IMG/VR virus record: IMGVR_UViG_3300025896_000191
Coordinates: 1-23,010 of that record
Length of the DNA: 23,010 nt
Origin: a virus
Strand: one strand, 5' to 3'
Notes under the pieces: generated by a model
What the model saw: only the letters and a program-made list of their open reading frames with translations
Database searches by the model: none
Told to the model about the DNA's origin: nothing
In this document: piece after piece, positions 1-22,714 of the stretch
Layout of the letters: every line of letters starts with the position of its first letter
Position numbering within the stretch: the first letter of the stretch is position 1
Program-made: the position numbers and the translations under genes

Positions 1-2
1 AT

Positions 3-41
3 AATGTTCTTGACATCATAGACGCTGAGGTATTAGAGTAG
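3..41 (+). CDS. C-terminal end of an upstream gene (partial)
   Basis: The window opens inside a reading frame that ends with TAG at 39-41. It reads as a short acidic tail ending in -IIDAEVLE. Of the other two frames, one is closed at once and one at base 21, so this frame is the likeliest end of an upstream gene on the same strand. Nothing about its function can be told from twelve residues. The position ahead of the terminase gene would suit a small terminase subunit, but that is a guess from gene order only. Confidence 0.35.
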   Translation, partial: NVLDIIDAEVLE

Positions 42-79
42 GTTCATAATTCTTTCTGACCCGCACCATGGAGATATAA

Positions 80-229
80 ATGGCTGATAAATATGACCTC
101 GCTAATCTGAGTATTGATGAACTTCCATTGTATGCGGGTGCTGTAGCATCTGGCGACTATCTTGTTCTTTGGGATGCGAGTGCTGCGAAGTTCGTTAAGG
201 TTGATGCCACACGCGTAACCTTCGCATAG
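80..229 (+). CDS. small structural-type protein, 49 aa
   Basis: This short ORF starts at ATG 80 with a TGGAG Shine-Dalgarno (69-73) six bases upstream and ends with TAG at 227-229. The product begins MADKYDLANLSIDELP and then has a segment of the form GDYLVLWDASAAKFVKVDA. That segment resembles the short anchor-like modules found in phage head-fibre and tail-fibre proteins, where a displayed domain follows. Here nothing follows, so it is either a stand-alone small virion protein or a shortened relative. It lies 10 bases before the next small structural ORF and ahead of the large terminase. I do not recognise it as a named family. The RBS, the codon structure and the fit between neighbours support it being a real gene; the virion role is inferred. 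Confidence 0.65.
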   Translation: MADKYDLANLSIDELPLYAGAVASGDYLVLWDASAAKFVKVDATRVTFA

Positions 230-239
230 GTGGCTGGTC

Positions 240-545
240 ATGGCATTTAAACCACGTAAGACATATTCACTGACAATGACAGGCTCTAGTGTTCGCCAAG
301 CATTATCTGCTGGTGGCACTGGTCAGGTTGAGATTTCTGCATCTGGTGGCGACATTGTGTGTAAGTTTGGTGATGCTGCTGTAACTGCATCTAGCACTGT
401 CACATCACAAGCATTGCCAGACGGTAACTTCATTGTTCTATCTGGTCAGACGAAATTATACGGCCTTGAGAATGAAACCCATATTGCAATGATTGGGAGT
501 GCTGGTGTTGGATACGCAACAGTTGGACACGGCGAACAAATCTAG
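240..545 (+). CDS. small beta-rich structural (decoration-like) protein, 101 aa
   Basis: A 101-residue protein rich in Gly, Ala, Ser, Thr and Val, with no signal peptide or membrane segment. The pattern (a TYSLTMTG start, then GQVEISASGGDIVCKFGDA, a Thr/Ser stretch and a PDGNFIVLSG segment) alternates polar and hydrophobic residues as in a small beta-sandwich. Similar small proteins are often found near terminase or capsid genes in podoviruses and are usually labelled hypothetical structural proteins. An AGGTGG Shine-Dalgarno lies just upstream. Its 3' end overlaps possible non-ATG starts of the terminase gene. The role (capsid surface or head-tail joining) is inferred from composition and context, and it could also be a non-virion protein. 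Confidence 0.75.
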   Translation: MAFKPRKTYSLTMTGSSVRQALSAGGTGQVEISASGGDIVCKFGDAAVTASSTVTSQALPDGNFIVLSGQTKLYGLENETHIAMIGSAGVGYATVGHGEQI

Positions 546-2058
546 TGAGTTGACTGAGGGCGAGATAAGGGCGCAGTTGGGTAATCGGTGGTGGAGACTG
601 AACCACCTTTACCATATTAAAGACACTAAAGGCCAAAAAGTAATATTCCGCATGAACTGGGCACAGAAGAAACTGTACACCAGTATGCACTATTACAACA
701 CTATCCTTAAAGCCCGTCAGCTTGGGTTCACATCTTTCATTATGATATATCTATTGGATAGTTGCTTATTCAACGATATGCACTCTGCGGGTGTGATTGC
801 TCATACGCGAGAAGCGGCAGAGGATTTGTTTAGGAATAAAATCCGATTTGCTTATGACGCGTTGCCTGAGTGGTTGCGTAAAGAGATACCAGCTAAAGCG
901 GACTCTGCACGCGTGTTGGAGTTTCAGAACGGTTCATCTATTGTTGTTGGTACATCTTTGCGGTCAGGGTCATTCCAGAAGCTACATATTTCCGAGTATG
1001 GTAAGACATCGGTTCGTGAGCCTGAGAAGGCTAAAGAGATTAAGACTGGTGCATTGAATACAATCCATATTGGTCAACAGATTTTCATTGAGAGTACAGC
1101 AGAGGGTCAGGGCGGAGAGTTCTTTGATATTATTGAACGCGCTAGAATACTTGCCGACACTGGAACAGACCTCACACCTATTGACCCCAAATTCCATTTC
1201 TTCCCTTGGTATGACCACCCAGATTATCGGCTGTCAGATATTGACGCTGGCAATGTTTCTATATCCGATAAGGATAGGACATACTTCGATAACCTTGGGG
1301 TCGCGTTAAGTGCTGGTCAGAAAGCATGGTATGTGAAGAAGAAGGAGCAACAGGGCGAGAGTATGTTGCGAGAGTTCCCGTCCACCCCTGATGAGGCATT
1401 TCAGGGGACGATGGAGGGGGCTATTTATCATTCCGATATGATTAGGCTCAGGGCATCTAATAGGATATGCCGTGTGCCGTATGAGCCAAGTAAGCCTGTT
1501 CATACATTTTGGGACTTGGGTAATCGTGACCCAGCCGCCGTATGGTTCTTTCAGCATATTGGTATGGAGTATAGGTTTATTGATTATTGGGAAGGTTCTG
1601 ATGTAGGCGGTCTTCCTCAATGGGTACGCATGATAAGAGAGAAGCCATATATCTATGGCACTCACTACTGGCCTCACGATGGTAATTATAAACAGGCTGG
1701 CACTGGTAAGTTACTTAAAGAGATGGGTGAGGATTTGGGATTGCGCCCTATCCAGATTGTCCAGCGCACAAAAGATAAACAGGTTAGCATTGAGAAGGTG
1801 CGTCCAATTTTGGGGCGTGCATATTTCGATGCTGAGAAGTGCTTCACTGGATTGAGGCATTTAGAGAATTACCGCCGTGAGTGGGATGAGCGTCTTGGTA
1901 TATTTTTAGCAAGCCCTCGACATGACTCGGCCTCCCATGGCTGTGACGCTATGATGACGTTCACTGATGGGTACGATGAAAGGCGCGTTGAAATGATTGA
2001 CTTTAATTCACGCCAAGCGTATGCTGAGCACGATTATGATATTTTAGGAGGATACTAA
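505..2058 (+). CDS. terL: terminase large subunit (DNA packaging ATPase/nuclease)
   Basis: The motor protein that pumps DNA into the prohead through the portal and cuts the concatemer. Visible signatures in order: the N-terminal adenine-binding region ending in NWAQ (about 655), a Walker A-like loop ARQLGFTS (712-735), Walker B LHISEYGK (982-1005), the coupling motif ESTAEG (1090-1107), then an RNase H-like nuclease with the first Asp in TFWDLGNRD (1504-1530) and the last Asp in HDSASHGCDAMM (1921-1956). The frame runs from a stop at 490-492 and the first ATG (652) lies inside the conserved N-terminal region, so the real start must be GTG or TTG. Candidates are 493, 499, 505, 508, 523, 550 and 577. 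I chose GTG 505 because GGGAG at 495-499 is placed as a Shine-Dalgarno, which means overlapping the previous gene. About 517 aa, slightly shorter than T7 gp19. Confidence 0.95.
   Translation: MLDTQQLDTANKSSELTEGEIRAQLGNRWWRLNHLYHIKDTKGQKVIFRMNWAQKKLYTSMHYYNTILKARQLGFTSFIMIYLLDSCLFNDMHSAGVIAHTREAAEDLFRNKIRFAYDALPEWLRKEIPAKADSARVLEFQNGSSIVVGTSLRSGSFQKLHISEYGKTSVREPEKAKEIKTGALNTIHIGQQIFIESTAEGQGGEFFDIIERARILADTGTDLTPIDPKFHFFPWYDHPDYRLSDIDAGNVSISDKDRTYFDNLGVALSAGQKAWYVKKKEQQGESMLREFPSTPDEAFQGTMEGAIYHSDMIRLRASNRICRVPYEPSKPVHTFWDLGNRDPAAVWFFQHIGMEYRFIDYWEGSDVGGLPQWVRMIREKPYIYGTHYWPHDGNYKQAGTGKLLKEMGEDLGLRPIQIVQRTKDKQVSIEKVRPILGRAYFDAEKCFTGLRHLENYRREWDERLGIFLASPRHDSASHGCDAMMTFTDGYDERRVEMIDFNSRQAYAEHDYDILGGY
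2045..2051 (+). promoter_or_regulatory. Shine-Dalgarno inside the terminase stop region
   Basis: TAGGAGG lies inside the last codons of the terminase gene (Leu-Gly-Gly-Tyr-stop) and eight bases before the ATG at 2060. It is close to the full anti-Shine-Dalgarno complement. Confidence 0.8.
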
Positions 2059-2059
2059 T

Positions 2060-2275
2060 ATGGGCGGACTAATGGGTGGGGCTAAAGTTGATACCAGAGC
2101 TGCGGACAGGGCGGAAGCAGATGCAAAAGATGCCGCAAAGAAATTAGCTGACTCCGAGGCTCAATCAAAAGCAGATGAAGAGTACCGCCGCAAAAATCAG
2201 CGCGGGAAAACATCTACTATTTTAAATAGCGTAGATGACGCGGCAAGTGGTTCGCGCTCACTGTTAGGAGGGTAG
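2060..2275 (+). CDS. small Ala/Lys-rich protein with C-terminal RSLLGG, 71 aa
   Basis: A 71-residue charged, probably helical protein: MGGLMGG start, an Ala/Asp/Lys-rich middle (residues about 10-45), an RGKTSTILNS segment and a C-terminal SRSLLGG. The combination of a Gly-rich start, an (R)G-x-STIL box and a C-terminal LLGG-like tail is, as far as I know, typical of short unnamed proteins beside the portal gene in many tailed phages; function unknown. It sits between terminase and portal, preceded by a strong Shine-Dalgarno. The next gene shares its first four and last six residues. Being at the portal, a role as a portal- or core-associated minor virion protein is possible but unproven. Confidence 0.8.
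   Translation: MGGLMGGAKVDTRAADRAEADAKDAAKKLADSEAQSKADEEYRRKNQRGKTSTILNSVDDAASGSRSLLGG
2264..2272 (+). promoter_or_regulatory. Shine-Dalgarno built from the LLGG codons
   Basis: TTAGGAGGG is formed by the Leu-Gly-Gly codons at the end of the 71-aa gene and lies five to seven bases before the ATG at 2278. The same arrangement is seen before 2060 and 2479. Confidence 0.8.
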
Positions 2276-2277
2276 TT

Positions 2278-2478
2278 ATGGGTGGATTAAATGCTAATGG
2301 CGATGGTACTGGTAATAAGCTAAGTAGTCGTCTTATAATGAGCGCGAAGAAAATTAGCGGTTACAAAGAGCCAGTGAAAACTGAAACTCCATTAAACCCA
2401 GTTATGATTGCGCCTACAAAGAAAAAAGTTTTTAGCACGACATCTGGCTCATCTGGTCGTAGCTTATTAGGGGGCTAA
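2278..2478 (+). CDS. small basic protein with MGGL start and RSLLGG end, 66 aa
   Basis: A 66-residue basic protein, low in predicted structure: MGGLNANGDG start, a Lys-rich middle with KKISGYKEP and a proline segment, then KKKVFSTTSGSSG and a C-terminal GRSLLGG. The first four and last six residues match the upstream 71-aa protein while the middle is unrelated. This suggests either a duplication whose centre diverged or two proteins docking through the same terminal peptides. Its stop codon (2476-2478) is directly followed by the portal ATG. The function is not known. Its placement suggests a small virion or assembly factor acting with the portal. Confidence 0.8.
   Translation: MGGLNANGDGTGNKLSSRLIMSAKKISGYKEPVKTETPLNPVMIAPTKKKVFSTTSGSSGRSLLGG
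2467..2474 (+). promoter_or_regulatory. Shine-Dalgarno of the portal gene within LLGG codons
   Basis: TTAGGGGG is formed by the last Leu-Gly-Gly codons of the 66-aa gene, about five bases before the portal ATG at 2479. It is the third consecutive use of the same device and slightly weaker, since GGG replaces GGA. Confidence 0.7.
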
Positions 2479-4110
2479 ATGACTAACATAGCAAAAGAGC
2501 TTATATCGACCCAGCAACGCCTTGAGTCTGATAAGGGTACTTATAACTCTCACTGTCAAGAGGTTGCTAGGTATGTCATCCCGCGCCTTGATGAGTTCTT
2601 TTCCAATAACAGGACTGCGGGTGAGAAGCGTTCTCAATGGCAGTTCGATTCTACAGCTCCATTAGCTCTTGATAGGTTCTCTGCAATTATCAGCTCTCTT
2701 GTAACCCCACGTGGTCAATACTGGCATGGGCTATCTCCTGAGAGTGATGAGCTATCTAATAACCACGAAGCTATGCTATGGTACGAGGCGGTTCGTAATA
2801 AGCTATTCAAATTAAGATATGGTTCAGGCTCGAACTTTGCCAACCAGATTAGTGAGTGTTATCAAAGCATGGGTGCGTTTGGTAATGGTGTTCTGATTGT
2901 AGAAGAGCGTGCGGCTAAGTGGGCGCGGTATAAATCAAGCCATATTAAAGAACATCACTTCATGGAAAATGAAGATGGTGTGATTGATACGAACTATAGA
3001 AAATACCAATTAACAGCCAAGCAAGCAGCAGAGAAATTTGGTGCTGGTGCTTTGTCTGGCACAATTAATAACGCTCTGGAAAAAACACCAGAGATGAAAT
3101 TTGATTTCCTCCATGTGGTGATGCCTAACTATGAGCGCAAACCACAGATGATTGACAATAATGGTATGGCTTATAAGTCTTACCATGTGGACTTGTCTGG
3201 TAATTCTTTGTGCGCTAAAGAAGGTGGGTTTAGGAAATTCCCATTTATTCCGTTACGTTATATCACATCAACTAATGAAATTTACGGACGTTCTCCAGCA
3301 ATGACTGCCTTGGCTGAGATTAAGATGCTTAACCAAATGCGCAAGACAGATATTAAGGCTCGTCACTTGGCTGTTGACGCACCTATCCTTGCATCTAATG
3401 AGGCATCGGTTCGTAAAGTATCATTGAAGCCAAATGCAATCAGCTATGGCACTCTTGATATGAACGGTAATCCATTGGTTCGACCATGGCAGACTGGCAA
3501 TAATCTGAGTGCGTCTGACAAAGGGATTGATGAAAGCCGCCGTATTATCAATGATATTTTCCTTGTCAACTTGTTCCAAATCCTTCTCGAAACGCCAGAG
3601 ATGACCGCCACTGAGGTTTTACAACGCCAGCAAGAGAAGGGTGACTTGCTCTCTCCTATTGGTGGTAGCCTTGAGTCAGAGTCGTTTAATAGGCTGATTG
3701 AGCGTGAGTTGGATATGATGGCTCACTCTGGTATGTTCGATGATGATGGTGAGCTTCCTATGCCGAAGTCTGTTCGTGATGCTGGTGGCGCTTATACAGT
3801 TGAGTTTACTTCTCCGCTTGCTCGTATGCGTATGGCTGGTGAAGCGGCTGGTGCCGAGCGTACATTACAGGCACTAATTCCTGCGGCGCAAGTTGACCCA
3901 ACAGTGCTAGATGCGATTGATTTTGATGCTTATGCTCAGATTATGAAGAAAGCAAACGGCGCCCCCGAACGCATGATGAAGTCTCCAGAGGTTGTTATGG
4001 CTATTCGTGAGCAACGTAACCAACAACAACAAATGGCACAGATGGCACAGGCGGCTCCACAAGTCGCTGGGGCAGTTAAAGATATTGCACAAGCACAGGC
4101 GTTACAATGA
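2479..4110 (+). CDS. portal (head-tail connector) protein, T7 gp8-type
   Basis: Forms the dodecameric ring at one capsid vertex through which terminase packages DNA and to which the tail proteins attach. Its 543 residues are close to T7 gp8 (536). The N-terminal region (a YNSHCQEVARYVIPR segment, then WQFDSTAPLALDRFSAIISSLVTP) is the usual start of the podovirus head-tail connector family. The central part has a PLRYITSTNEIYGRSPAM segment, the region facing the connector clip and stem. The C-terminus is Gln/Ala-rich (QQQQMAQMAQA) and probably helical, as in the crown or barrel of related portals. It starts directly after the stop of the 66-aa gene and its stop overlaps the next start (ATGA, 4107-4110), so the two are probably translationally coupled. 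Confidence 0.95.
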   Translation: MTNIAKELISTQQRLESDKGTYNSHCQEVARYVIPRLDEFFSNNRTAGEKRSQWQFDSTAPLALDRFSAIISSLVTPRGQYWHGLSPESDELSNNHEAMLWYEAVRNKLFKLRYGSGSNFANQISECYQSMGAFGNGVLIVEERAAKWARYKSSHIKEHHFMENEDGVIDTNYRKYQLTAKQAAEKFGAGALSGTINNALEKTPEMKFDFLHVVMPNYERKPQMIDNNGMAYKSYHVDLSGNSLCAKEGGFRKFPFIPLRYITSTNEIYGRSPAMTALAEIKMLNQMRKTDIKARHLAVDAPILASNEASVRKVSLKPNAISYGTLDMNGNPLVRPWQTGNNLSASDKGIDESRRIINDIFLVNLFQILLETPEMTATEVLQRQQEKGDLLSPIGGSLESESFNRLIERELDMMAHSGMFDDDGELPMPKSVRDAGGAYTVEFTSPLARMRMAGEAAGAERTLQALIPAAQVDPTVLDAIDFDAYAQIMKKANGAPERMMKSPEVVMAIREQRNQQQQMAQMAQAAPQVAGAVKDIAQAQALQ

Positions 4111-4379
4111 ACATAAAACAATTCCTTAAAAGCAAAGAATGGGCATGGCGATTCTTGCTTCTTGATGACCAAGGTAAAGAAGTAAACAGTCAGGCGCGAA
4201 TTGCTCTTGCTGACTTGCGCTCTTTCTGCCATGGTACTAAAAGCACATTCAATTCAGACCCTTTAGAGATGGCTAGATTAACAGGCCGCAAAGAAGTTTT
4301 TGAGAGAATAATGACATACTTAAATTATGATACTAGCAAACTTTACGACCTTGAAGAGGAGTTAATTGATAATGACTGA
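4107..4379 (+). CDS. Bbp19-like phage protein, 90 aa
   Basis: A 90-residue protein. Residues about 28-75 show the pattern ALADLRSFCHGTKSTF, then DPLEMARLTGRKEVFERI and LNYDTSKL. This matches my recollection of the Bbp19 family named from Bordetella phage BPP-1, a short protein commonly found between portal and scaffold genes in podoviruses. Its biochemical role is not established to my knowledge, and the conserved position suggests a head assembly or minor virion function. It overlaps the portal stop by four bases and the scaffold start by eight, so the three genes form a tightly coupled unit. The family assignment is from pattern memory only. Confidence 0.8.
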   Translation: MNIKQFLKSKEWAWRFLLLDDQGKEVNSQARIALADLRSFCHGTKSTFNSDPLEMARLTGRKEVFERIMTYLNYDTSKLYDLEEELIDND

Positions 4380-5211
4380 TATTCTATCTGATGCCCCAGC
4401 CGATAATGGTGGACAAGCTGACGTAGTAGTTGATAATAAAACTTGGTATGATGGGGCAGACCCAGATACAGTCGGTTATATTCAAAATAAGAAATGGGAT
4501 ACGGCGGAAGGCCCGAAAAAAATTGTAGAGAGCTATCGTAATCTGGAGAAATTCCATGGCGTTCCTGCTGACCAAATTATTAAACTCCCAAAATCTGGTG
4601 AGCCAATGGACGAGGTTTATAATCGCCTTGGTCGCCCAGAGTCACCTGATAAATATGCTCCTGTTGAGGGTTTAGAGTTTAACGCCGATATTATGAAGCG
4701 TTTTGATTCTAAGTTCCACGCCGCTGGATTGAATAATGAACAACGCTCAGCAATTCTTGCTGAGTACGGTGCTTTTGAAAAAGAAATCCAAGCACAAAAC
4801 GCAACGGCTATCGAGCAAGAAAAGACATTGCAAATTGATGCGCTCAAAAAAGAATGGGGCGCGCATTATGATGAACGCCTTGTTTTAGCTAAGCAAGCCG
4901 CACGCGCAATGCTTCCTGATAGCGCACAACGCGATGAGATTTTTCAGGCAATGGAGTCTGCTATTGGCCCCGCTGTATTGGCTAAGATGTTTGCAAACCT
5001 TGCTGATAAATTGGGCGAAGATAAAATTCATTCGCCTTCTGATGGTGGTAATCGCCAGTTTGGTTACACTAGAGAACAAGCGTTGAATGATAAAAACACC
5101 ATTATGAACGAAATCAAAGCAGACCCAGCTAGACTTGCTATGTATAATAAAGGCATGGGGAATGACATCGAGAAGATTTTGAAATTGAATAAAATATTAT
5201 CAGGTGAATAA
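4372..5211 (+). CDS. capsid assembly scaffolding protein
   Basis: The internal scaffold that guides capsid protein into a correctly sized prohead and then leaves or is degraded. About 279 residues, acidic at the N-terminus. It contains the block WYDGADPDTVGYIQNKKWDT (about residues 24-43), then ESYRNLEKFHGVPADQI and YNRLGRPESPDKYAPVEG, a set I associate with podovirus scaffolding proteins. The middle (about 95-200) is charged and helical, fitting a coiled-coil scaffold. The C-terminus (MYNKGMGNDIEKILKLNKIL) is a basic amphipathic helix, the usual capsid-binding end. I chose ATG 4372 because an AAGAGGAG Shine-Dalgarno lies ten bases upstream; a TTG at 4366 is in frame but less likely. Confidence 0.9.
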   Translation: MTDILSDAPADNGGQADVVVDNKTWYDGADPDTVGYIQNKKWDTAEGPKKIVESYRNLEKFHGVPADQIIKLPKSGEPMDEVYNRLGRPESPDKYAPVEGLEFNADIMKRFDSKFHAAGLNNEQRSAILAEYGAFEKEIQAQNATAIEQEKTLQIDALKKEWGAHYDERLVLAKQAARAMLPDSAQRDEIFQAMESAIGPAVLAKMFANLADKLGEDKIHSPSDGGNRQFGYTREQALNDKNTIMNEIKADPARLAMYNKGMGNDIEKILKLNKILSGE

Positions 5212-5582
5212 TGGCAACAATAGAGTGTATTCATAAGTTGGGCGGAGTAAATAATGTCGTCAGTGTTAGCTGGTTTGATATACCAGCTAATAGCGATGGT
5301 GGTTTTATTGAGATGCCCAACCATTCTGATAAGACAGTACAATTCTTTGGTGTGTTTGGTGGGGCAACAAGTAAAATACAAGGCTCTAATGATGAGCGTG
5401 TAATGACTGATTACGCATCATCGGTTTGGTATGATTTAACTGATGTTAATGGAATGGCTGTTTCTAAAAGTTCCGCTGGAGCCTCTGTTATTATGGAGAA
5501 CCCTAGATATGTTCGTTCTATTGTAACTGGTGGAGATGGAACAACCTCAATTACTATTGTTATCTGTGCTAAGAGGGGATAA
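5211..5582 (+). CDS. small beta-rich virion protein, 123 aa
   Basis: A 123-residue protein with the pattern VVSVSWFDIPANSDGGFIEMP, then FFGVFGGATSKIQGSNDE, a WYDLTDVNGMAVSKSSAGA segment, ENPRYVRSIVTGGDG and a final ITIVICAKRG strand. KIQGSND followed by WYDLTD and NPRYVRS is a recurrent module in phage surface proteins, where it forms a small beta-sandwich often displayed on capsids or fibres. The gene starts on the scaffold stop (TAATG overlap) behind AGGTGA and ends on the next start in the same way. A capsid decoration or head-fibre role is inferred from the module and its position between scaffold and capsid genes. There is no membrane segment or signal peptide. Confidence 0.8.
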   Translation: MATIECIHKLGGVNNVVSVSWFDIPANSDGGFIEMPNHSDKTVQFFGVFGGATSKIQGSNDERVMTDYASSVWYDLTDVNGMAVSKSSAGASVIMENPRYVRSIVTGGDGTTSITIVICAKRG

Positions 5583-6034
5583 TGGACGCTGATTTAAAAA
5601 ACCATATCAATAAAGGTTTTAAAACATTTGAGGTCTTTAGCAAGCTGAAAGATTTCGTTGATGATATTGACGCTGTTGAATCTCAAGTTTCAGAACAGAA
5701 AAAATATATATTAAACGCTCAAGCCGAGATTGATTTGCTTGTAAAAAAACAAGTTGAAGCAAAAGAAATAATAAAAAGCATAGAAGATTCTGGTGCGCTT
5801 ATTATCGAAGAAGCTAAAAAAGAAGCTTTGGAAATAGTAGAAAAAGCTAAATATCAAAAAAATGAAATAGCTAAAAAAGAAAAAGCCGAGTCTGAAAAAG
5901 CTAAATATAAAATCACAGAATTACAAAAAGAAATAGATTTACTAAGTAAAGAAATCGTGCCTTTGAGACATGAGCGTGATACAATTGTCTCCGAAATTGA
6001 AACTGTTAAAGATAAGTTTAGGAAAATGATTTAA
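5582..6034 (+). CDS. coiled-coil protein of unknown function, 150 aa
   Basis: A 150-residue Lys/Glu-rich protein that is almost wholly helical. From about residue 28 to the end, hydrophobic residues recur in heptad-like spacing among charged ones (QAEIDLLVKKQVEAKEIIKS, EEAKKEALEIVEKAKYQKNE, KITELQKEIDLLSKEIVPLR), predicting a long parallel coiled coil. There is no membrane segment. The gene is strikingly A-rich compared with both neighbours. It starts on the previous stop behind GAGGGG and overlaps the next start by one base. Between a decoration-like and a head-fibre-like gene, the simplest idea is a trimeric or dimeric stalk that carries the neighbouring beta domain. A second scaffold-like or core protein is the alternative. 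No family recognised. Confidence 0.75.
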   Translation: MDADLKNHINKGFKTFEVFSKLKDFVDDIDAVESQVSEQKKYILNAQAEIDLLVKKQVEAKEIIKSIEDSGALIIEEAKKEALEIVEKAKYQKNEIAKKEKAESEKAKYKITELQKEIDLLSKEIVPLRHERDTIVSEIETVKDKFRKMI

Positions 6035-7176
6035 TGGTAGATAACGTACAATTACCAGTGCCTAGTACAACAGGACAAGTCGTTGCCTCTGATGATGTGG
6101 CGGGAGTACAATTCCAACGAGTTAAGTTTACACTTGGCGCTGATGGCGTTAATGATGGGGATATTTCATTTGCGAATCCGATGCCGACCGATATTAACGC
6201 ATATTTCAAATCAGAGGATACTGCGGCAACATCTGGCGATAAAGGCCTTCCATTATTGGCTATGCGGCAATTAGCAGATAGCACATCAACTGACGCGGAC
6301 GGTGATTATACACTTTTTAAAATAGATGAAGAAGGCCGTTTAAAGGTGGCAACAAAACCTGCGTCATTTACTCTGGTTACTGGCTCAATAACAGCTAACG
6401 CGCAGACAGCGTTCTGCGATGTGTCCCGCGCTTCAAACGTTCTAATCCATATGGTTGCGACTTCACTTGTCGGGCATAACGCAACCTTTGAGGGGTCTTT
6501 AGATAGTACTAATGGAGCAGACGGAAATTGGTTTGGCATTCAAGTTATTCGTTCAAACGCCAACACAATAGAATTAACTACGGGCGTTCTCGCGGCTACT
6601 CCTGCTTATGCGTGGGAAGCGTCTGTTAATGGATTAACTTTCATTCGTGTAAGAGCAACAGCACATACAAGCGGCACCGCTTTATGGAAGTTTCAACGTG
6701 GCTCTTACGCAACTGAACCAATCCCAGCGGCGCAAGTGAGCGCGACACAACCTGTATCGGGTTCGGTAACAGCTACATTAGCTGCATCCGCTGTTCGCGC
6801 TGGTTTTATAGCGGGGGCGGCTATTTGGTATGATGACAGTGCAACTGTGCTGGCGGGCGCAGCTACATTTACAGGAACATCACGCGATTTGACTGTAACG
6901 GCAACCGCAACCGCTATGGCTAACGCGGCAACATACGTCAAAGAAATAAGGCTATCTGCCGAAAGTGACCAATCTGGAACGCTATGGCTTGAAGTATCAA
7001 GAGACAATACAAACTGGCGCAGGGTTAAGTCTGTAGCTACTGCGGCGGTAACGGGCGGTGGTCAATATGCTGAAATCGTCCATCGTCCATCATGGCGTTA
7101 TGCCCGTGTAGGTTTTACAAACGGCGCAACATTACAGACACGTTTCTCAATCGGCTCGATGTTGGTGGCGGTGTAA
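6034..7176 (+). CDS. head-fibre / displayed structural protein, two beta domains, 380 aa
   Basis: Residues 1-50 carry a recurrent phage module (STTGQVVASDDVAGVQFQRV, then LGADGVNDGD and NPMP), commonly at the N-terminus of head-fibre or capsid-surface proteins, presumably the anchor. Two Ala/Thr-rich beta domains follow, about residues 108-228 and 250-380. Each has an E-x-S-x-D/N...G-x-W-like stretch (EGSLDSTNGADGNWFGIQV; LEVSRDNTNWRRVKS), suggesting a duplicated carbohydrate-binding-like fold. There is no signal peptide or membrane segment. It follows the coiled-coil gene with a one-base overlap and lacks a close Shine-Dalgarno, so translational coupling is likely. Function as a capsid-displayed adhesin is inferred; a baseplate-type or minor tail protein is the alternative. 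Confidence 0.75.
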   Translation: MVDNVQLPVPSTTGQVVASDDVAGVQFQRVKFTLGADGVNDGDISFANPMPTDINAYFKSEDTAATSGDKGLPLLAMRQLADSTSTDADGDYTLFKIDEEGRLKVATKPASFTLVTGSITANAQTAFCDVSRASNVLIHMVATSLVGHNATFEGSLDSTNGADGNWFGIQVIRSNANTIELTTGVLAATPAYAWEASVNGLTFIRVRATAHTSGTALWKFQRGSYATEPIPAAQVSATQPVSGSVTATLAASAVRAGFIAGAAIWYDDSATVLAGAATFTGTSRDLTVTATATAMANAATYVKEIRLSAESDQSGTLWLEVSRDNTNWRRVKSVATAAVTGGGQYAEIVHRPSWRYARVGFTNGATLQTRFSIGSMLVAV

Positions 7177-7275
7177 ATGCTCTTAGCTCTCTGGTCCGCT
7201 TATGAGTGGGTTTCTGAAAGTGTATCAGAAGGCGGAAGAAATTATCTTTATTTTCGCAGACGTAGAAAAAGATAG
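7177..7275 (+). CDS. 32-aa peptide with Arg/Lys-rich C-terminus
   Basis: A short ORF starting immediately after the previous stop (TAA-ATG) and ending at TAG 7273-7275. It has a hydrophobic start (MLLALWSAYEWV) and a strongly basic end (YLYFRRRRKR). GGTGG at 7164-7168 could be a Shine-Dalgarno. Short Arg-tailed peptides between a head-fibre-like gene and the capsid gene occur in other podoviruses as far as I recall, but I know of no function. Being adjacent to the previous gene favours translation by coupling. It could also be a chance ORF, as it is only 33 codons; the abrupt basic tail is the main reason to keep it. Confidence 0.5.
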   Translation: MLLALWSAYEWVSESVSEGGRNYLYFRRRRKR

Positions 7276-7304
7276 TTGACTATATTCCTATTGTAGGATA
7301 TTAT
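7276..7304 (+). promoter_or_regulatory. sigma70-type promoter for the capsid unit
   Basis: TTGACT (7276-7281) and TATTAT (7299-7304) are separated by exactly 17 bases. Each hexamer matches the sigma70 consensus at five of six positions. Transcription would start at about 7311, just before a structured leader and 130 bases before the major capsid gene. This is the best promoter in the window and lies immediately after the stop of the 32-aa ORF. Confidence 0.8.
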
Positions 7305-7311
7305 TCACATT

Positions 7312-7334
7312 GCAGGATAAGGTTATCCCCCTGC
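7312..7334 (+). other. leader hairpin 1 of the capsid mRNA
   Basis: GCAGG (7312-7316) can pair with CCTGC (7330-7334), and the inner ATAA with TTAT, leaving a small C bulge. The stem begins almost at the predicted 5' end of the promoter's transcript. A hairpin at the very 5' end would be expected to protect the mRNA from decay; that role is inferred. Confidence 0.5.
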
Positions 7335-7339
7335 GCGAA

Positions 7340-7356
7340 AACGTGACGCTCACGTT
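7340..7356 (+). other. leader hairpin 2, perfect 7-bp inverted repeat
   Basis: AACGTGA (7340-7346), loop CGC, TCACGTT (7350-7356): a perfect inverted repeat in the untranslated leader between the promoter and the capsid gene. No T tract follows, so it is not an intrinsic terminator. It could be an RNA structure that stabilises the message, or a protein-binding site. Confidence 0.55.
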
Positions 7357-7397
7357 AAATGCGTAGGAATTGCCCTCTAATAATTGAGACAAGCGTT

Positions 7398-7436
7398 CCG
7401 TTGAATTTGATTTTATTTTAACTCAAACAACGGAGG
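7398..7436 (+). promoter_or_regulatory. leader hairpin 3 abutting the capsid Shine-Dalgarno
   Basis: CCGTTG (7398-7403) pairs with CAACGG (7428-7433), and TTTGA (7406-7410) with TCAAA (7423-7427), with a two-base bulge and a T-rich 12-base loop. The last two G of the stem are the first two of the GGAGG Shine-Dalgarno (7432-7436), which is five bases from the capsid ATG. It could mildly gate translation or simply place the site next to a stable stem. Confidence 0.5.
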
Positions 7437-7441
7437 CCAAA

Positions 7442-8332
7442 ATGGCTGATATTGAAGCACTACGGATACAGACGTATTCGACTAACCTTGAACTGTTGTT
7501 GCAACAACGCGGTTCACCATTCCGTAACTATTGCCGTAAAGCAAATGCTGCGGGTTCTAAAGCGTATCGTTTTCTGTCTCAAGTAGCGAAAGTTAACGCT
7601 TCTCGCCGTACAGGACCAGCGGAGCCTATTGATAACCAAGCTATGACGCTTGATGGTCGTTGGGTAAATATGCCATTGCCATTCAACTTCAATACAATCG
7701 TTGATGATATTGATTTGCTGCAAACTAACATTCAGCCACAAGGCGCATATGTTACTTCTGCGGTTGAAGGTCTTAATCGTCAAATCACTGACTCTTTCTT
7801 TACCGCTTTTTATGGTACAGCTAAGACTGGTGAAACTGGTAGCACATCAACTACATTTACATCTGGCAACCAAATTGCTGTGACAGTAGGTGCTGGTGCG
7901 GCAACTGGTTTAAACCTTGAGAAACTTCGTGCCGTTAAAAAACTTGCACAACAACAATTTGTTGATTTCAGCTTTGAGCGTCCAGTAATGGCACTTAACG
8001 CTAAAGCACATGATGATTTGTTGGCTCTGACGCAAGTTGTTTCAACAGACTTTAACTCTCGTCCAATTCTTTCAGAAGATGGCGTTGTTAGTTCTTTCCT
8101 CGGTATTGACTTCGTAATGAATGAACAGATTCCAGTTGACTCAAGCGGATACTACCGTTTGCCATTCTGGGTTCCTTCTGGTATCGGTGAAGCAACATGG
8201 TTTGACATCAAGACGGATATTCGTGAGCTTCCAAACTACAAAGGGAAACCAATGTTGATTGAGGCTGAATCATGTATTGAGTACACTCGTCTCGAAGAGA
8301 ACAAGTGTTACGAAGTCAAAGTAACAGCTTAA
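7442..8332 (+). CDS. major capsid protein (HK97-fold, podovirus type)
   Basis: The shell-forming protein, 296 residues. It starts MADIEALRIQTYSTNLELLL and continues with segments I associate with a family of about 300-aa phage capsid proteins (Phage_capsid_2-like): YRFLSQVAKVNASRRTGPAE, then DGRWVNMPLPFNFNTIVDDID, a Gly/Thr-rich loop near 125-155, and a C-terminal GKPMLIEAESCIEYTRLEENK. It is shorter than T7 gp10A (345 aa) and not obviously related to it in sequence. It has its own promoter and structured leader, a strong GGAGG site five bases from the ATG, and uses CGN codons for all 15 arginines (no AGA or AGG), all signs of very high expression. The capsid role is also supported by position after the scaffold and before the tail tubular genes. 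Confidence 0.92.
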   Translation: MADIEALRIQTYSTNLELLLQQRGSPFRNYCRKANAAGSKAYRFLSQVAKVNASRRTGPAEPIDNQAMTLDGRWVNMPLPFNFNTIVDDIDLLQTNIQPQGAYVTSAVEGLNRQITDSFFTAFYGTAKTGETGSTSTTFTSGNQIAVTVGAGAATGLNLEKLRAVKKLAQQQFVDFSFERPVMALNAKAHDDLLALTQVVSTDFNSRPILSEDGVVSSFLGIDFVMNEQIPVDSSGYYRLPFWVPSGIGEATWFDIKTDIRELPNYKGKPMLIEAESCIEYTRLEENKCYEVKVTA

Positions 8333-8344
8333 GGAGAATGAATT

Positions 8345-8839
8345 ATGGCTACAATTTTAGGCACTCATATTACTAACATGGACGCCACTCCATTCAACCG
8401 CGTACTCGCTGTTGAACATGGTGGTATCCAAAAAACAATTTCGTTGACAGAAGAGTTTCCAGTTATGTCTCTTGCTGACGTTGAGATTGTTGCAAAACTT
8501 CCTATTGATGCAGTTTTGCCATCTATCAAGTTGGCAAGCGATGATTTGGGAACTACTGGTACGTTAAATATTGGGTTCTATAAAAAGAACACTGATGGCA
8601 CATACACAGCCGTTTCCGCCGCCGCAATTGCATCGGCAATCAACGTCAACACTGCTGCGGTTGCTTTAACAGAATATCGTTTCTCTGTTAAAGATATTAA
8701 CACAGCAAAACAAAAAGTATGGGAACTTGCTGGTCTTTCAGCTCGCCCCGCTTATTCTGACATGTATGTTGGTGTAGCCGCTGCCGCAGCTACAACTGCC
8801 ATTGGTACTGTTAGTATGTTTATTGATTTTGTTGAATAA
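8345..8839 (+). CDS. putative capsid decoration protein, 164 aa
   Basis: 164 residues, rich in Ala, Val, Thr and Ile and without charged clusters. It begins MATILGTHITNMDATPFNRV and later has SLADVEIVAKLPIDAVLPSIKL, NIGFYKKNTDGTY and a hydrophobic alanine-rich run near the end followed by GTVSMFIDFVE. It follows the capsid gene by 12 bases with an AAGGAG site eight bases from the ATG, and is the last gene before a strong terminator, so it is made from the same abundant mRNA as the capsid protein. A protein encoded this way is expected in high copy number, which fits a decoration or cement protein. No named family recognised; a head completion role is the alternative. Confidence 0.75.
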   Translation: MATILGTHITNMDATPFNRVLAVEHGGIQKTISLTEEFPVMSLADVEIVAKLPIDAVLPSIKLASDDLGTTGTLNIGFYKKNTDGTYTAVSAAAIASAINVNTAAVALTEYRFSVKDINTAKQKVWELAGLSARPAYSDMYVGVAAAAATTAIGTVSMFIDFVE

Positions 8840-8847
8840 ATAAAACT

Positions 8848-8877
8848 ATGGGGGCTAACCATGCCCCCATTTTTTCT
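8848..8877 (+). terminator. intrinsic terminator after the capsid unit
   Basis: ATGGGGGC (8848-8855) and GCCCCCAT (8863-8870) form a perfect 8-bp, GC-rich stem with a seven-base loop, followed directly by TTTTTT then C. It is a textbook rho-independent terminator. It lies 8 bases after the stop of the 164-aa gene and 13 bases before the next start. No promoter is evident between it and the tail genes, so those depend on read-through or on antitermination. Confidence 0.92.
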
Positions 8878-8889
8878 TACAGGTGAGTC

Positions 8890-9450
8890 ATGGCTTCTAA
8901 ATCAGAGATTGCTAATAGAGCTTTGTTAAAACTAGGTCAACCTAGAATTTCTAATATTGAGACAGACCCTTCACCAAATGCTATTGCAATGAATAGCCTT
9001 TTTGATAATGTCCGCGATGAAATCCTGCAATCGTATCCTTGGAATTTTTCTATTAAGCGTGCAAATATTGCCGCAGACGCTGTAACCCCTACATGGGGTT
9101 GGGATAACGCGTTTTCTCTGCCTGTTGATTGCTTGAGAATATTAGAGATAAAAGATGTTGCGGATTATTCCGTAGAAAATAATAAAATACTATGCGATGA
9201 AAATGGCCCTATATATATTAAATATATATACCGAGTAAGTGACACAGCATTATTCCCATCGTTATTTAATGAGTTGTTTTCTATCACATTAGCTATTCAG
9301 GCTAACGAAAAGATTACAAACAATCAGGGATTGCAACAAAATTTATTAATAGAGCGAAAAGATATTTTAGAAAGAGCGTCGTCAACTGATGCTATTGAAA
9401 ACCCACCTGAATTTTTTGAAGATGATGCTTGGTTAGTGTCGAGGTTATAG
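8890..9450 (+). CDS. tail tubular protein A (T7 gp11-type adaptor)
   Basis: The adaptor ring that joins portal to tail nozzle, 186 residues (T7 gp11 196). The N-terminus SEIANRALLKLGQPRISNIE, then RDEILQSYPWNFSIKRA, WGWDNAFSLPVDCLRILEI and the all-helical C-terminal half (ITLAIQANEKITNN) follow the conserved order of this family. AGGTGAG lies just before the ATG. It follows the terminator closely, which suggests that it and all downstream genes are made at lower levels than the capsid unit, in keeping with about 12 copies per virion. Its stop codon is directly followed by the start of tail tubular protein B, its structural partner. Confidence 0.92.
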   Translation: MASKSEIANRALLKLGQPRISNIETDPSPNAIAMNSLFDNVRDEILQSYPWNFSIKRANIAADAVTPTWGWDNAFSLPVDCLRILEIKDVADYSVENNKILCDENGPIYIKYIYRVSDTALFPSLFNELFSITLAIQANEKITNNQGLQQNLLIERKDILERASSTDAIENPPEFFEDDAWLVSRL

Positions 9451-11484
9451 ATGCCAATACAAACATCTTTTAATGCTGGTGAATTTAGCTCCCTAATGGG
9501 GGGTGATGTCGATTTAGATAAGCGTGCGTTTTCCGTTTCTCTGATGGAGAATATGATTGCTCTAAAGCAGGGGCCAGCCGTTACTCGCGGCCCTACAAAT
9601 TTCATCAATGAAGTAAAAGATAGTGATAATAAAACAGCCATTCGTAAGTTTGAGTTTAGCGATACCGATGCAATCCAGATTGAAATTGGTGATTTGTATT
9701 TCAGGTTCTATAAAGAATACGCGCAAATATTAAATGCTGGTACGCCTGTTGAATTAGTCACGCCATACGCACAAGCTGATTTGTTTGATGCTGATGGGGT
9801 GCTATTATTAAACTTCGCGCAATCTGCTGATGTGATGTATATAACACACCCGTCATATCCGATTTATGCGCTTACAAGGGTATCGGATATATCTTGGTCA
9901 TTAACTGAGATTGACTTAGATGATGGGCCATATCTTGACCTTAACGGCACATCAACCACAATAACCCCATCTGGAACTTCTGGTTCTGTAAGTCTAACCG
10001 CATCCGCTGCATTATTTGCCGCCACTGATATTGGTCGTATTGTTCGCGTGTTGCATGGCTCTACATGGGGTTGGGCGACAATTACCGCATACACGAGCAC
10101 AACTGTTGTTACCGCCACCACAGGCTCAAATTTTGGTGCAACAACAGCGTCAGTTTCATGGAGGCTTGGTGTTTATTCTGAGACAACTGGCTATCCGTCC
10201 GCGATTACATTTTTCCAAGATAGGGTTGCTTTGAACGGCTCCACATCAGACCCAGATTTTTATGCGTTATCAAAAACATCTGGTTATTCCCCAACAAAGA
10301 TTTCTTTCCAGCCTACCAATGCGTCTGGCGTTGTTGCTGATGACAATGCTATTACAGGCCGCGTTCCGTCAGGTCAGGTAAATAACATTAGATGGTTGGC
10401 ATCTGATTCTAAAGGTTTGATTATTGGCACAAGCAAAGAAGAGCTCCTTCTTCGTGCTAACTCATTAGGCGATACAATTACCCCGACCAATAAGAACATC
10501 GTTCCATTATCTGCTACTGGTGGGAGTATCATCCCTCCAATTAAAACAATTAATGGCAACGCGTTTATCCAAGAATTTAGACGTAGGGTGTTTGATGTTG
10601 TTTATACTTATGAGGAAGATAGCCTTAAACCAAAAGACCTTACATTAGCCGCCGAGCATATAACTCGCGGACAGATTATTGATGCAAGCTACCAGAAAGA
10701 GCCAGTTAATATTATCTGGTTTGCCAAGGGTAACGGTGAGTTGGTCGGTATGACACATTATCCAGACCAGAAGGTTTATGGCTGGCATCGTCATACTATA
10801 GCTGGAACAGAACCCGCAGTTGAGAGTATTTCAACTATCCCATCCCCAGACGGTCAGCGCGACGATTTATGGATGATTGTGAAGCGCACGATTAACGGGG
10901 TGACTAAGCGGTATGTTGAGTATATGTCTCGTCATTATGAAGATGATATGGAAGTGTACGAGGGGGCGAGATGTGATAGTAGGTTCTCTTATATCGGAGC
11001 ATCAACCTCCACTGTTACTGGATTGTCACACCTTGAGGGGCAAACAGTTAAGGTTATGGTTGATGGTAAGTCTCATCCTGATTTAGTTGTCAGCGGTGGA
11101 GCAATCACATTAGCGAACTCTAGGGTTGGTGAGAACATCCAGATTGGTTTAGGTTATAGATGGAGACTTGTTACAAGAGAAGTTGAAATTAAACTTAAAA
11201 ATGGAGATACAGCTCAAGGTAAAATTAAGCGTGTTAGTGATGTTGTATTGCGCTTATTAAATACACTTGGGTTAGAATACGGAAAATATAATAGCACTTT
11301 GTACGAATACGACTTTAACCAAGGCCAATCTTTTGATGAAACGCCAGCTTTGTTCTCTGGTGATACTGAAACAATAGCATGGCCTGATGGGTCTGACTCC
11401 AATATGCAAATGGAATTTTCCAGTGATAGTGTTTACCCAGCCTGTATAGTCGCACTGATGTATGAAATTACGGTGCAACCATGA
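9451..11484 (+). CDS. tail tubular protein B (T7 gp12-type nozzle)
   Basis: Forms the hexameric nozzle of the short tail below the adaptor ring. 677 residues (T7 gp12 794). The N-terminal block is diagnostic: FNAGEFSSLMGGDVDLDKR, an ENMIALKQGPAVTRGPTNFI segment and RKFEFSDTDAIQIEIGDLYF. An Ala/Thr-rich beta domain follows (about 165-235), then TGYPSAITFFQDRVALNGS, YALSKTSGYSP, RWLASDSKGLIIGTSKEELL and TYEEDSLKPKDLTLAAEHI, the usual order in the beta-propeller-like part. GAGG six bases upstream is the probable ribosome site. Its stop overlaps the next start (ATGA at 11481-11484). Confidence 0.93.
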   Translation: MPIQTSFNAGEFSSLMGGDVDLDKRAFSVSLMENMIALKQGPAVTRGPTNFINEVKDSDNKTAIRKFEFSDTDAIQIEIGDLYFRFYKEYAQILNAGTPVELVTPYAQADLFDADGVLLLNFAQSADVMYITHPSYPIYALTRVSDISWSLTEIDLDDGPYLDLNGTSTTITPSGTSGSVSLTASAALFAATDIGRIVRVLHGSTWGWATITAYTSTTVVTATTGSNFGATTASVSWRLGVYSETTGYPSAITFFQDRVALNGSTSDPDFYALSKTSGYSPTKISFQPTNASGVVADDNAITGRVPSGQVNNIRWLASDSKGLIIGTSKEELLLRANSLGDTITPTNKNIVPLSATGGSIIPPIKTINGNAFIQEFRRRVFDVVYTYEEDSLKPKDLTLAAEHITRGQIIDASYQKEPVNIIWFAKGNGELVGMTHYPDQKVYGWHRHTIAGTEPAVESISTIPSPDGQRDDLWMIVKRTINGVTKRYVEYMSRHYEDDMEVYEGARCDSRFSYIGASTSTVTGLSHLEGQTVKVMVDGKSHPDLVVSGGAITLANSRVGENIQIGLGYRWRLVTREVEIKLKNGDTAQGKIKRVSDVVLRLLNTLGLEYGKYNSTLYEYDFNQGQSFDETPALFSGDTETIAWPDGSDSNMQMEFSSDSVYPACIVALMYEITVQP

Positions 11485-11921
11485 TGGTGAAAGTTCCGTT
11501 CCTGTCAGTCCATCTTGATGATATAGCACTGCAAGCTGGTCAACATGATATGGTGGAATTTTTAGAACAAGATGGATATGCAGAGATGCTTGAGGCAGTA
11601 GAAGGCTCTTACAGTGTGTTTAAGGATGGGGTATTGATGGGGTGCGGCGGGTTGGCAAGTCAGGGTAATGGTCGAGCTTTGGCATGGACACTTATCACAG
11701 CTATGTGCGAAGGTACTGATATGATTGCCGTGACAAAGATAGTGCGAGATGCTATAGTAAATTCAAAGTATAGAAGGATTGAAGCAATCGTCCGTGGTGA
11801 TTTTGAAGCTGGTCATAAATGGATGAGATTGCTTGGTTTTAAACTTGAAACGGAACATGGTATGGCTGGATGGTTTAACGATGGGGAAAAAGGTTATTTA
11901 TATTCGAGGAGTCCAAAATGA
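11481..11921 (+). CDS. GNAT-fold virion/assembly protein (T7 gp13 counterpart)
   Basis: 146 residues, in the position and size of T7 gp13 (138 aa), a protein with an acetyltransferase-like fold linked to assembly of the internal core. The second half reads like a GNAT domain: IVNSKYRRIEAIVRGDFEAG, HKWMRLLGFKLETE and YLYSRSP, the pattern of the last strands and helices with the C-terminal GF-x-x-E turn. The acetyl-CoA binding loop (R/Q-x-x-G-x-G/A) is not visible where expected, so an active enzyme is doubtful. It overlaps the nozzle stop by four bases and the next start by four. I infer a structural or assembly role; a true acetyltransferase acting on a host or virion protein cannot be excluded. 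Confidence 0.8.
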   Translation: MMVKVPFLSVHLDDIALQAGQHDMVEFLEQDGYAEMLEAVEGSYSVFKDGVLMGCGGLASQGNGRALAWTLITAMCEGTDMIAVTKIVRDAIVNSKYRRIEAIVRGDFEAGHKWMRLLGFKLETEHGMAGWFNDGEKGYLYSRSPK

Positions 11922-12397
11922 CGGGTATTGAAACAGCTTTAATAGCTGCTGGTATGTCCGCCAGCACAGCAGCTACGGTTACATCAATTAGCACTCTTGC
12001 CTCCGTTGCCTCTCTCGGCTCTACATTCATTGGTATGCAGGGGCAGAAACAGCAACAAAAAGCAGAAGCAGTTAGCAATAGAACAAACGCCGCTATTGAA
12101 GCTACTAACTCTGCAAATCAAGAGATTGCAACACGCCGTGACCAGTATTTAAGAACTGGTGCAAATGTCGCCGCCGCTGGTGCTGGCGGTGGACAGACTG
12201 GTTCTGCCCTTGATATTCTTGCAGATAACGCCGCGCAGGATGAATTAAATATCATTGGAATTAGAAAAAATGCCGCAATCACACAAGATGTCTATAAATC
12301 AAAAGCATCATCTGCTAAGCAAGCTGGCAAAATGAATACCTACGCTGGCATTTTATCTGGTGGTGTTGACGCTTACAAATTATATAAGGGTATGTAA
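11918..12397 (+). CDS. internal virion protein B-like (T7 gp14 counterpart)
   Basis: 159 residues in the place of T7 gp14 (196 aa), which is ejected into the host outer membrane to begin the DNA conduit. The N-terminal 40 residues are Ala/Thr/Ser/Val-rich and weakly hydrophobic (MTGIETALIAAGMSASTAAT, then ISTLASVASLGSTFIGMQ), fitting membrane insertion. Residues 41-80 are Gln/Ala/Asn-rich and helical. A Gly/Ala stretch (VAAAGAGGGQTGSALDILA) matches the usual SG-rich turn of this family, followed by a long helix ending in YKLYKGM. A GAGGAG site lies six bases before ATG 11918. The TAA overlaps the next ATG by one base. Confidence 0.85.
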   Translation: MTGIETALIAAGMSASTAATVTSISTLASVASLGSTFIGMQGQKQQQKAEAVSNRTNAAIEATNSANQEIATRRDQYLRTGANVAAAGAGGGQTGSALDILADNAAQDELNIIGIRKNAAITQDVYKSKASSAKQAGKMNTYAGILSGGVDAYKLYKGM

Positions 12398-21364: not shown

Positions 21365-22714
21365 ATGTTAAGAGCAGTAGCAACACCAAGTTATAACGCG
21401 ATAATTGGTTCGCCAAAGAGTTATAAAGCAAATCCAAAAATCGCCATTCTTGGTGATAGCATGACTAATTATAACAATGATTGCGCTGGAACTGTGTACT
21501 TAATTAATGAAGCTCAAGGTTACATGACATGGCTTAATGCTTTGTCTGGGCAGCGTTTTAATTTTCCTGTTGCGGGTGCTAACGATATTTTTACAGCCGC
21601 AAACTTTGGCGTTTCAGGCGAAAGGCTAGATGAAATTAAGGCGCGTCTAAATCCTGTTATTGCGTACAACCCTGATGCTATTATTTTTATGGGAGGTACA
21701 AATGACCTTGTAAATACAACAAGAACATGGGCGCAAATGACTGCCGATGCCCAAACGATTATTGAGACCTTTACTAATCGTGGTGTTTATTTTATCGCCA
21801 TGCCGATTTTGCCGCGTTCTACTTGGTCTTCTTTGACTGCTGGTGAAATTATTACTCGCCGCAAAGTTCAATATAATTTTAACACATGGCTGCGCCGTTA
21901 TGCTTTAACTAATCCATTATGCGTAATTGCCGACCCTACTCTTGATTGGATTGACCCAGCTAGCGCGACAGGAGACCCAAAGGCTGGTATAACTCAAGAT
22001 AATTTACATCAATCCCCAACTGGTGCTTATTACATGGCAAAAGCGATAAAGCGCGTTACGGATGTTATATTTCCGCCTATTTGCCAAACCCGTGTAAGTT
22101 CTGTTCTGGACGCTTATGACGCTACAGATAATCCTCGTGGCAATCACACAATTAACGGCCTTATGTCTGGCACTGCTGGAACGAATGGAACAGGCTCAAG
22201 CGGTACTGTTGCGGATAACTGGACTGTTTCAAGAAGTTCTGGTTCAACTATCACGGCAGTTTGCTCTAAAACGACATTAACAATTCCTGATGTCTTAACG
22301 CCAATCACAGCTCAACGTATTGTAGTTTCAAGTGGTGGTGCTGGGGCAACAAACGAAGCAATCCGTATGTATCCAAGCGCAACTATATCAACGGGGATTA
22401 CAACGGGTGATATTTGCTATGCAGAGGCTATAGTTCGCGTCTCTGGTATAACTGGTATCGTGCAGGGCGTTGTTTTACAAATGGAACATTATGATGGAAC
22501 AACACCATATTACGCGCGTGATATGGATAGGAAAACATCCCCCCATGCTTTACCAACAGGAATCGATGAAGTTCTTACATTAAAAACACCTGTTTTCCCT
22601 GCCCCTGCTTCTTTTGCGTATGTTCGTTGTGGAGTGTTAATTTATGTTGACGGTAACGTGTCTGGCGGGGTGACGGCTGATATTGCACAAATAACATTGC
22701 GTAAGGTTGTATAA
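21365..22714 (+). CDS. SGNH/GDSL hydrolase with C-terminal beta domain (virion esterase-like)
   Basis: 449 residues. The N-terminal half (25-235) is an SGNH hydrolase with all four blocks visible: KIAILGDSMT with nucleophile Ser32, NFGVSGERLDE (Gly), FMGGTNDLV (Asn) and the Asp-x-x-His pair in DNLHQSPTGAYYM. Such enzymes remove acetyl or acyl groups from glycans. The C-terminal half (about 245-449) is Gly/Thr-rich and beta-stranded, with SGTVADNWTVSRSSGSTITA and a terminal AQITLRKVV, like a jelly-roll binding module of tail proteins. AGGAG six bases before ATG 21365 is a strong site. No signal peptide is seen, so it is probably a tail-associated enzyme acting on capsule or O-antigen acetyl groups; an intracellular role is the alternative. 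Confidence 0.9.
   Translation: MLRAVATPSYNAIIGSPKSYKANPKIAILGDSMTNYNNDCAGTVYLINEAQGYMTWLNALSGQRFNFPVAGANDIFTAANFGVSGERLDEIKARLNPVIAYNPDAIIFMGGTNDLVNTTRTWAQMTADAQTIIETFTNRGVYFIAMPILPRSTWSSLTAGEIITRRKVQYNFNTWLRRYALTNPLCVIADPTLDWIDPASATGDPKAGITQDNLHQSPTGAYYMAKAIKRVTDVIFPPICQTRVSSVLDAYDATDNPRGNHTINGLMSGTAGTNGTGSSGTVADNWTVSRSSGSTITAVCSKTTLTIPDVLTPITAQRIVVSSGGAGATNEAIRMYPSATISTGITTGDICYAEAIVRVSGITGIVQGVVLQMEHYDGTTPYYARDMDRKTSPHALPTGIDEVLTLKTPVFPAPASFAYVRCGVLIYVDGNVSGGVTADIAQITLRKVV

Follow-up and report, generated by a model that had tools for sequence, protein, structure and literature searches.

The major capsid protein (MCP) gene of this phage and the cement gene behind it probably form a transcription unit of their own, with a host-type promoter, a terminator after the cement gene, and a leader RNA that acts as a conserved cis-regulatory element for capsid and assembly genes. 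We assign this joint reading a probability of roughly 0.72. What determines the relative amounts of shell, scaffold and cement protein in DNA phages has long been asked, and promoters and gene order are the usual answer. Here a translational answer can be put directly to the test, with a compact RNA element that stands almost exclusively before one capsid family, that of cultured SAR11 phages (HTVC010P among them) included. The element is also a candidate RNA module for protein binding and supplies a sequence tag for the PF19821 capsid family.

Organization of the capsid unit

The window, meaning the whole stretch of DNA analysed (23,010 nucleotides, IMG/VR record IMGVR_UViG_3300025896_000191), is the 23 kb late region of a short-tailed phage whose portal matches the PF12236 profile at 2.1e-103. 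It carries a PF19821 MCP within the gene order of the HTVC010P-type capsid module: terminase, PF12236 connector, assembly gene, MCP, cement, tail. The relationship is distant: in the MCP alignment, identity to the four pelagiphages is 27–32%. Judged by MCP, the closest named phages are a Manatee Spring podovirus, HTVC010P-type pelagiphages and two human faecal phages, at 25–36% identity. The features of the unit, together with a possible site further upstream, are:

4392–4419, plus strand: possible copy of the motif, weak, where the assembly/protease gene begins (gene 4366–5211; E = 4.2 with covariance model R1, see below)
7276–7304, plus strand: sigma70-like promoter TTGACT-17-TATTAT, 10 of 12 consensus matches
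7311–7441, plus strand: structured MCP leader RNA (fold z −4.65 for 7311–7460)
7311–7335, plus strand: RNA motif, permuted copy GCAGG-AUAA-GG-UUAU-CC-C-CCUGC (matcher match)
7340–7356, plus strand: hairpin AACGUGA-CGC-UCACGUU between the two motif copies (predicted fold)
7366–7399, plus strand: RNA motif, direct copy GGAA-U-UGC-C-CUC-loop-GAG-ACAA-GCG-UUCC (matcher match; core 7371–7395)
7398–7433, plus strand: hairpin CCGUUG...CAACGG (predicted fold)
7442–8332, plus strand: MCP gene (PF19821, 1.7e-45; phrog_3437)
8345–8839, plus strand: capsid cement (decoration) protein gene (synteny and AlphaFold2 model)
8848–8876, plus strand: intrinsic terminator, hairpin 8848–8870 plus T tract (8 perfect pairs, −15.4 kcal/mol)

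From the promoter at 7276–7304 a transcript would start near 7311. A consensus match alone proves nothing, because promoter-like sites are as frequent here as in shuffled sequence (27 in positions 1–12000 versus 26.8), and this site is one of six plus-strand 10/12 sites in the window. Two of the six lie wholly within the ~667 non-coding bases left by our own gene list, at 7276–7304 and at 10–39; the latter is a sigma70-like TTGACA-18-TAGAGT upstream of the first late gene. Across relatives, a sigma70-type site of at least 10/12 occurs within 320 nt upstream of the MCP gene at 16/81 loci including the window, compared to a mean of 2.16 loci in shuffles (at most 5 in 50 rounds), 1 on the opposite strand and 22 of 1385 windows elsewhere. 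Sites of at least 11/12 precede the MCP gene at 8/81 loci, versus 0.1 in shuffles. Relatives with a promoter of at least 10/12 quality are a minority. An internal promoter of sigma70 type makes sense because Skadi-1, an HTVC010P-type phage, is reported to encode no RNA polymerase (PMC10504331).

The product of 8345–8839 has relatives at the equivalent position in HTVC010P-type phages. The two best PDB matches of its AlphaFold2 model (pLDDT 91.5) are capsid chains from phages Pam1 (E 1.8e-5) and GP4 (E 1.4e-4); the capsid cement proteins of KHP40 and KHP30 come lower down (KHP40 at rank 16). The terminator hairpin behind it runs into TTTTTTC and could also be usable on the minus strand. Strict terminators within 120 nt after the cement gene were found at 27/76 loci including the window, against 1.3 expected from their density elsewhere in the same loci, and HTVC010P has one at this place. 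Terminators upstream of the leader are rarer (6/81 loci, clearest in L131). The first-pass annotation had proposed a near-consensus sigma70 promoter, a leader, the MCP gene, a decoration candidate and an intrinsic terminator in direct succession. Promoter and terminator are present where it placed them, position and predicted structure lend support to the decoration assignment, and the layout as a whole recurs in diverged relatives (promoter 16/81, terminator 27/76).

Several further observations concern the surrounding late region. From the preceding gene to the promoter, the space is taken up by a 32-codon reading frame (7177–7275) whose stop codon abuts the −35 box; relatives have a gene of 55–65 codons at its place. 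The last long late gene, 21365–22714, encodes a GDSL-type lipase/acylhydrolase domain (PF13472, 2e-14) and is perhaps a receptor-modifying tail protein. On the minus strand, a strong hairpin with a T-rich tail lies at 22746–22723, just downstream of a promoter-like TTGACA-18-TATTTT at 22811–22782; together they would produce a short antisense RNA where the late operon ends.

An internal-loop motif in capsid gene leaders

Some 130 nt of leader separate the predicted start from the MCP gene, and none of 200 shuffles of 7311–7460 folded as well as the native sequence. This exceptional folding had gone unmentioned in the first-pass annotation. The leader contains two copies of a motif whose core is a 1x4 internal loop, a C opposite A-N-A-A/C, between two short helices. 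The direct form reads outer stem, single C, inner stem, loop, inner stem, A-C/U-A-A/C, outer stem; in the permuted form the identical internal loop is closed from the other end. Neither form appeared in any of 3000 shuffles of the window leader, and the direct copy at 7366–7399 is found in relaxed form too. The hairpin at 7398–7433 overlaps the outer stem of this copy and runs into the Shine-Dalgarno (SD) sequence GGAGG (7432–7436). Covariance model R1, for which 13 copies from relatives were used, did not detect the window's leader copies at E ≤ 5, and they are therefore divergent members by structure rather than sequence.

Relatives were gathered with the terminase and a two-member MCP alignment. 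As sole queries, the window's MCP and cement protein retrieved none, and an eight-member MCP alignment proved too heterogeneous for searching. From 174 MCP loci we removed L001, L049 and L129 as duplicates by origin, and filtering the remaining 171 for redundancy and short leaders left 82 non-redundant PF19821 MCP loci, window included. A first motif definition that left out the opposing C missed most copies and was replaced. Within 250 nt upstream of the MCP, the strict motif occurs in direct form at 50 loci, in permuted form at 29 and in either form at 56, compared to 0.35, 0.2 and 0.55 in shuffles and 0/82 on the reverse complement; these are in-sample counts, as the motif was first spotted by eye in the same leaders. 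Each leader with the motif holds one to four copies. When the relaxed form is also admitted (A-G-A-A allowed, as in pelagiphages), 64/82 loci carry the motif within 120 nt, versus 0.7 when shuffled, again an in-sample count. The other 18/82 leaders had neither form within that distance, and some of them (L130, L157, L171, L175, L190) are matches to R1. Since the motif is present at 64/82 loci and promoters of this strength at 16/81, the RNA element is better conserved than the promoter. Pelagiphage leaders contain C-stem-loop-stem-A[GU]AA in 49 of 50 distinct cases. Among cultured phages, Vibrio phage 1.182.O (L451) has a direct copy in its MCP leader, and the MCP leader of Skadi (L453) shows the pelagiphage form by eye.

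Base pairing within the motif is preserved while its sequence changes. A 42-copy MAFFT alignment (A4) misaligned the 5' arms, and counts were taken from equal-length sets only. In set A5, 94.9% of positions pair (shuffled 82.1, best slide 56.9); sets A7 and A8 reach 96.7% and 97.5%, with four and two pairs, respectively, changed on both sides. Outer pairs 1–3, anchored by sequence, exceed permutation with z of 3.6–4.3, although neither permutations nor shuffles take account of the relatedness of loci. In another anchored test the third inner pair did not exceed permutation (0.52 versus 0.49), the register there being ambiguous. In pelagiphages both sides of the inner stem change in concert.

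The motif is near-exclusive to leaders of the PF19821 capsid family. The IMG/VR-wide pattern run, which with the held-out SD pairing loci described below constitutes our test outside the 82 loci, returned 49 places (by contig name, 8 already in our set and 41 new), and 48 have a PF19821-like MCP within 400 nt downstream. At the 49th (L239), the contig ends in a frame that reads by eye like the start of such a protein. Searching 60 sources with R1 gave 54 matches at E < 0.05, 52 in MCP leaders (44 sources) and two at assembly-gene starts; on the opposite strand of these sources there were none. Among 47 comparison loci, 35 with no PF19821 match, R1 produced two matches at E ≤ 0.01, one in the MCP leader of L009 and one in L043. 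The latter (2736–2757, E 0.0015) lies far from the capsid gene. Matches at E ≤ 0.1 were present in 20 of 30 whole records, mostly at capsid genes, with a few weak ones elsewhere. A looser pattern that makes no demand on the inner stem matched at least 120 stretches; among the 80 matches listed, 34 are upstream of an MCP, and the third inner pair forms in 32/34 of these versus 21/46 of the others. This contrast is a clean control for structure. On the reverse strand of L407, a good copy (2641–2663) lies ~40 nt before a phrog_9953 major head gene, which belongs to another family.

Known Rfam classes were rejected as the identity of the element. Two Rfam matches in the window fell far below gathering scores, neither in the leader, and nine relatives gave none at E ≤ 1. 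The portions of PMC8040213, PMC10504331, PMC2864571 and PMC10931766 available to us contain no description of the element, nor was one found in the literature searched, which excludes most subscription papers. The Skadi authors state that no terminator sequences or ribonucleotide switches could be identified (PMC10504331). The folded leader element is apparently new to description.

Copies of the motif also occur at the assembly gene. A direct one occupies non-coding sequence after the preceding gene and before the assembly-gene start codon in L159, L173, L203 and L192, and the SD falls inside it. In pelagiphages, a permuted copy falls within the first codons of the assembly gene at 56 of the 63 loci reaching that gene; its inner stem is fully paired in 52/56, with several paired changes. 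The N-terminal coding region of the assembly gene in other relatives is rich in A, P, G and Q, and for that reason we treat coding matches there, including 4392–4419 in the window, as weak evidence.

Complementarity to the Shine-Dalgarno region

The 5' half and loop of the motif pair better with the SD region of their own locus (mean −10.5 kcal/mol) than with those of other loci (−8.6 kcal/mol; z −7.0, 0/5000 permutations), as measured at the 49 of 82 loci with a copy at the required distance (n = 49). The result was repeated in held-out loci (z −3.6, 1/5000 permutations, n = 26). Of the 34 MCP-associated looser-pattern matches listed, 33 satisfied the rule on start and distance, and the 26 used are those that were both new and distinct. 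The signal resides in the apical loop and its flanking bases (z −7.9), compared to z of −1.8 and −4.2 for the arms alone. This pattern of covariation fits either strand exchange or a loop–SD pseudoknot.

A leader motif tied to capsid genes, with an apical part that covaries with the SD, points to an additional layer of control, most likely translational, and shell production is probably controlled at the RNA level too. The first-pass annotation had held that capsid and decoration protein levels would be raised by transcription alone. The promoter and terminator layout it described does recur, but "alone" does not stand given an RNA motif that covaries with the SD. On a purely transcriptional account, capsid mRNA would be raised by a strong promoter inside the operon together with a terminator that leaks, and the leader would only stabilise the message. 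It draws on the recurrent promoters and terminators (16/81 and 27/76 loci) and on cultured Alteromonas phage ZP6 (L452), which by eye has a perfect TTGACA-17-TATAAT ~110 nt before its MCP gene and in whose MCP leader the strict matcher found no motif. However, a stabiliser predicts neither a fixed-sequence internal loop nor permuted copies nor motif–SD covariation, and we judge this account unlikely.

We propose instead that the motif would act in cis, as an RNA element regulating the translation of capsid and assembly genes, and that a protein probably binds it. An internal loop that can be closed from either end, in one to four copies per leader, is as expected of a protein-recognised module. 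Since the apical part of the gene-nearest copy can pair with the capsid SD, motif formation or binding should alter ribosome access; this translational effect, whether it turns expression on or off, we infer.

Energy modelling does not support the simplest form of such a switch, in which motif formation by itself frees the SD. Modelled with nested folds, SD accessibility was 0.20 free and 0.24 with the motif enforced (p 0.076), rising in 19 and falling in 12 of 45 loci. Judged as a riboswitch-like switch, the element has significant SD complementarity and, in the fold model, a thermodynamic switch that is not significant. Enforcing the motif costs 7.4 kcal/mol on average (45 loci), which suggests that it needs a binding partner. 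In the window, forming the direct copy costs ~8 kcal/mol if its outer stem is extended, and the SD hairpin is then partly opened; with a three-pair outer stem it costs 0.4 kcal/mol and leaves that hairpin intact. Pairing between the SD region and the direct motif is moderate (−8.0 kcal/mol).

In a variant of the proposed mechanism, a loop–SD pseudoknot would repress translation when formed, acting as an off switch rather than by strand exchange that frees the SD. The concentration of the SD signal in the apical loop and flanks (z −7.9, arms z −1.8 and −4.2) speaks for it. The test of the arms is blunt, though, since only variable positions can covary, and L173 would by eye need about ten pairs from an eleven-base loop. 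We regard the off switch as a tentative alternative, somewhat less probable than not being the case.

Candidate factors and comparison with known systems

Under the translational reading, one factor would read the sites in the capsid leader and at the assembly gene and so balance scaffold and shell synthesis. This factor would most likely be a capsid assembly protein, either the scaffold or the capsid protein. The copy in L407, ~40 nt before the phrog_9953 head gene, would not be explained by a protein specific to PF19821 capsids and could instead suggest some other RNA-binding factor common to many hosts. It is a single case, possibly due to chance, as 46 of the 80 looser matches listed lie outside PF19821 MCP leaders, and the tighter pattern is rare in host genomes (nine stretches). 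A host factor of this kind is improbable in our estimation.

A more specific candidate is ribosomal protein S7. Here the leader would mimic the S7 operon-control site, and free host S7 would control shell and scaffold translation in many short-tailed phages through imitation of a ribosome assembly site, in which case shell synthesis would respond to the host's state of ribosome assembly. In 16S rRNA, the S7 site carries ACAAG where h28 and h29 join, ordered as in the permuted copy; a 16S rRNA to compare with was looked for in one genome and not found there. The exact pattern occurs at nine places in 84,980 species, and five of these, all in Ramlibacter (L260, L262, L265, L266, L267), lie ~30 nt upstream of an S7-like gene; the downstream product in G030 is PF00177, the others being judged by their S7-like starts. 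R1's best match in three Ramlibacter genomes is likewise the S7 leader (E ~1e-6), and S7 is described as binding the region before its own gene (PMC10931766). The five Ramlibacter genomes nevertheless represent one lineage, and we estimate that anything from a handful to a few tens of pattern matches would arise by chance in 257 Gb. The motif is not general to S7 leaders: only 6/39 match, five from Ramlibacter, included because of their match, and one other (39 leaders were readable among 65 loci, 26 being unreadable by the start rule). Other S7 leaders of the order have, by eye, a hairpin there without the loop. Because other S7 leaders lack the motif, we lowered our estimate of this reading and now hold it very doubtful.

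Among known systems, the capsid unit resembles gene 10 of phage T7, where phi10, the gene 10 leader, gene 10 and Tphi follow one another and the transcription sites belong to the phage RNA polymerase. In both cases a capsid gene has its own promoter, a structured leader and a terminator after it; in the window, leader and terminator flank the capsid genes as read from the sequence. Unlike in T7, promoter and terminator here are by sequence of the host kind, termination is placed behind the cement gene, and the leader carries a conserved internal-loop motif with SD complementarity. Structural proteins also control capsid or scaffold translation in the coat protein operators of RNA phages and in P22 scaffold autoregulation. 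The phages considered here, double-stranded DNA phages with shells of HK97-type fold, differ in having several and permuted copies, for which binding by a protein is proposed.

The leaders of ribosomal protein genes, such as the S7 site of the str operon, likewise place a small RNA site before the gene of an assembling protein and regulate translation; the S7 site of str mRNA is described as resembling that of 16S rRNA (PMC10931766). Unlike the str site, the element described here precedes phage capsid genes, and its factor is a candidate. HTVC010P-type pelagiphages share with the window the gene order, the PF19821 capsid, the cement gene, the terminator and the motif, in their case with an AGAA or AUAA loop.
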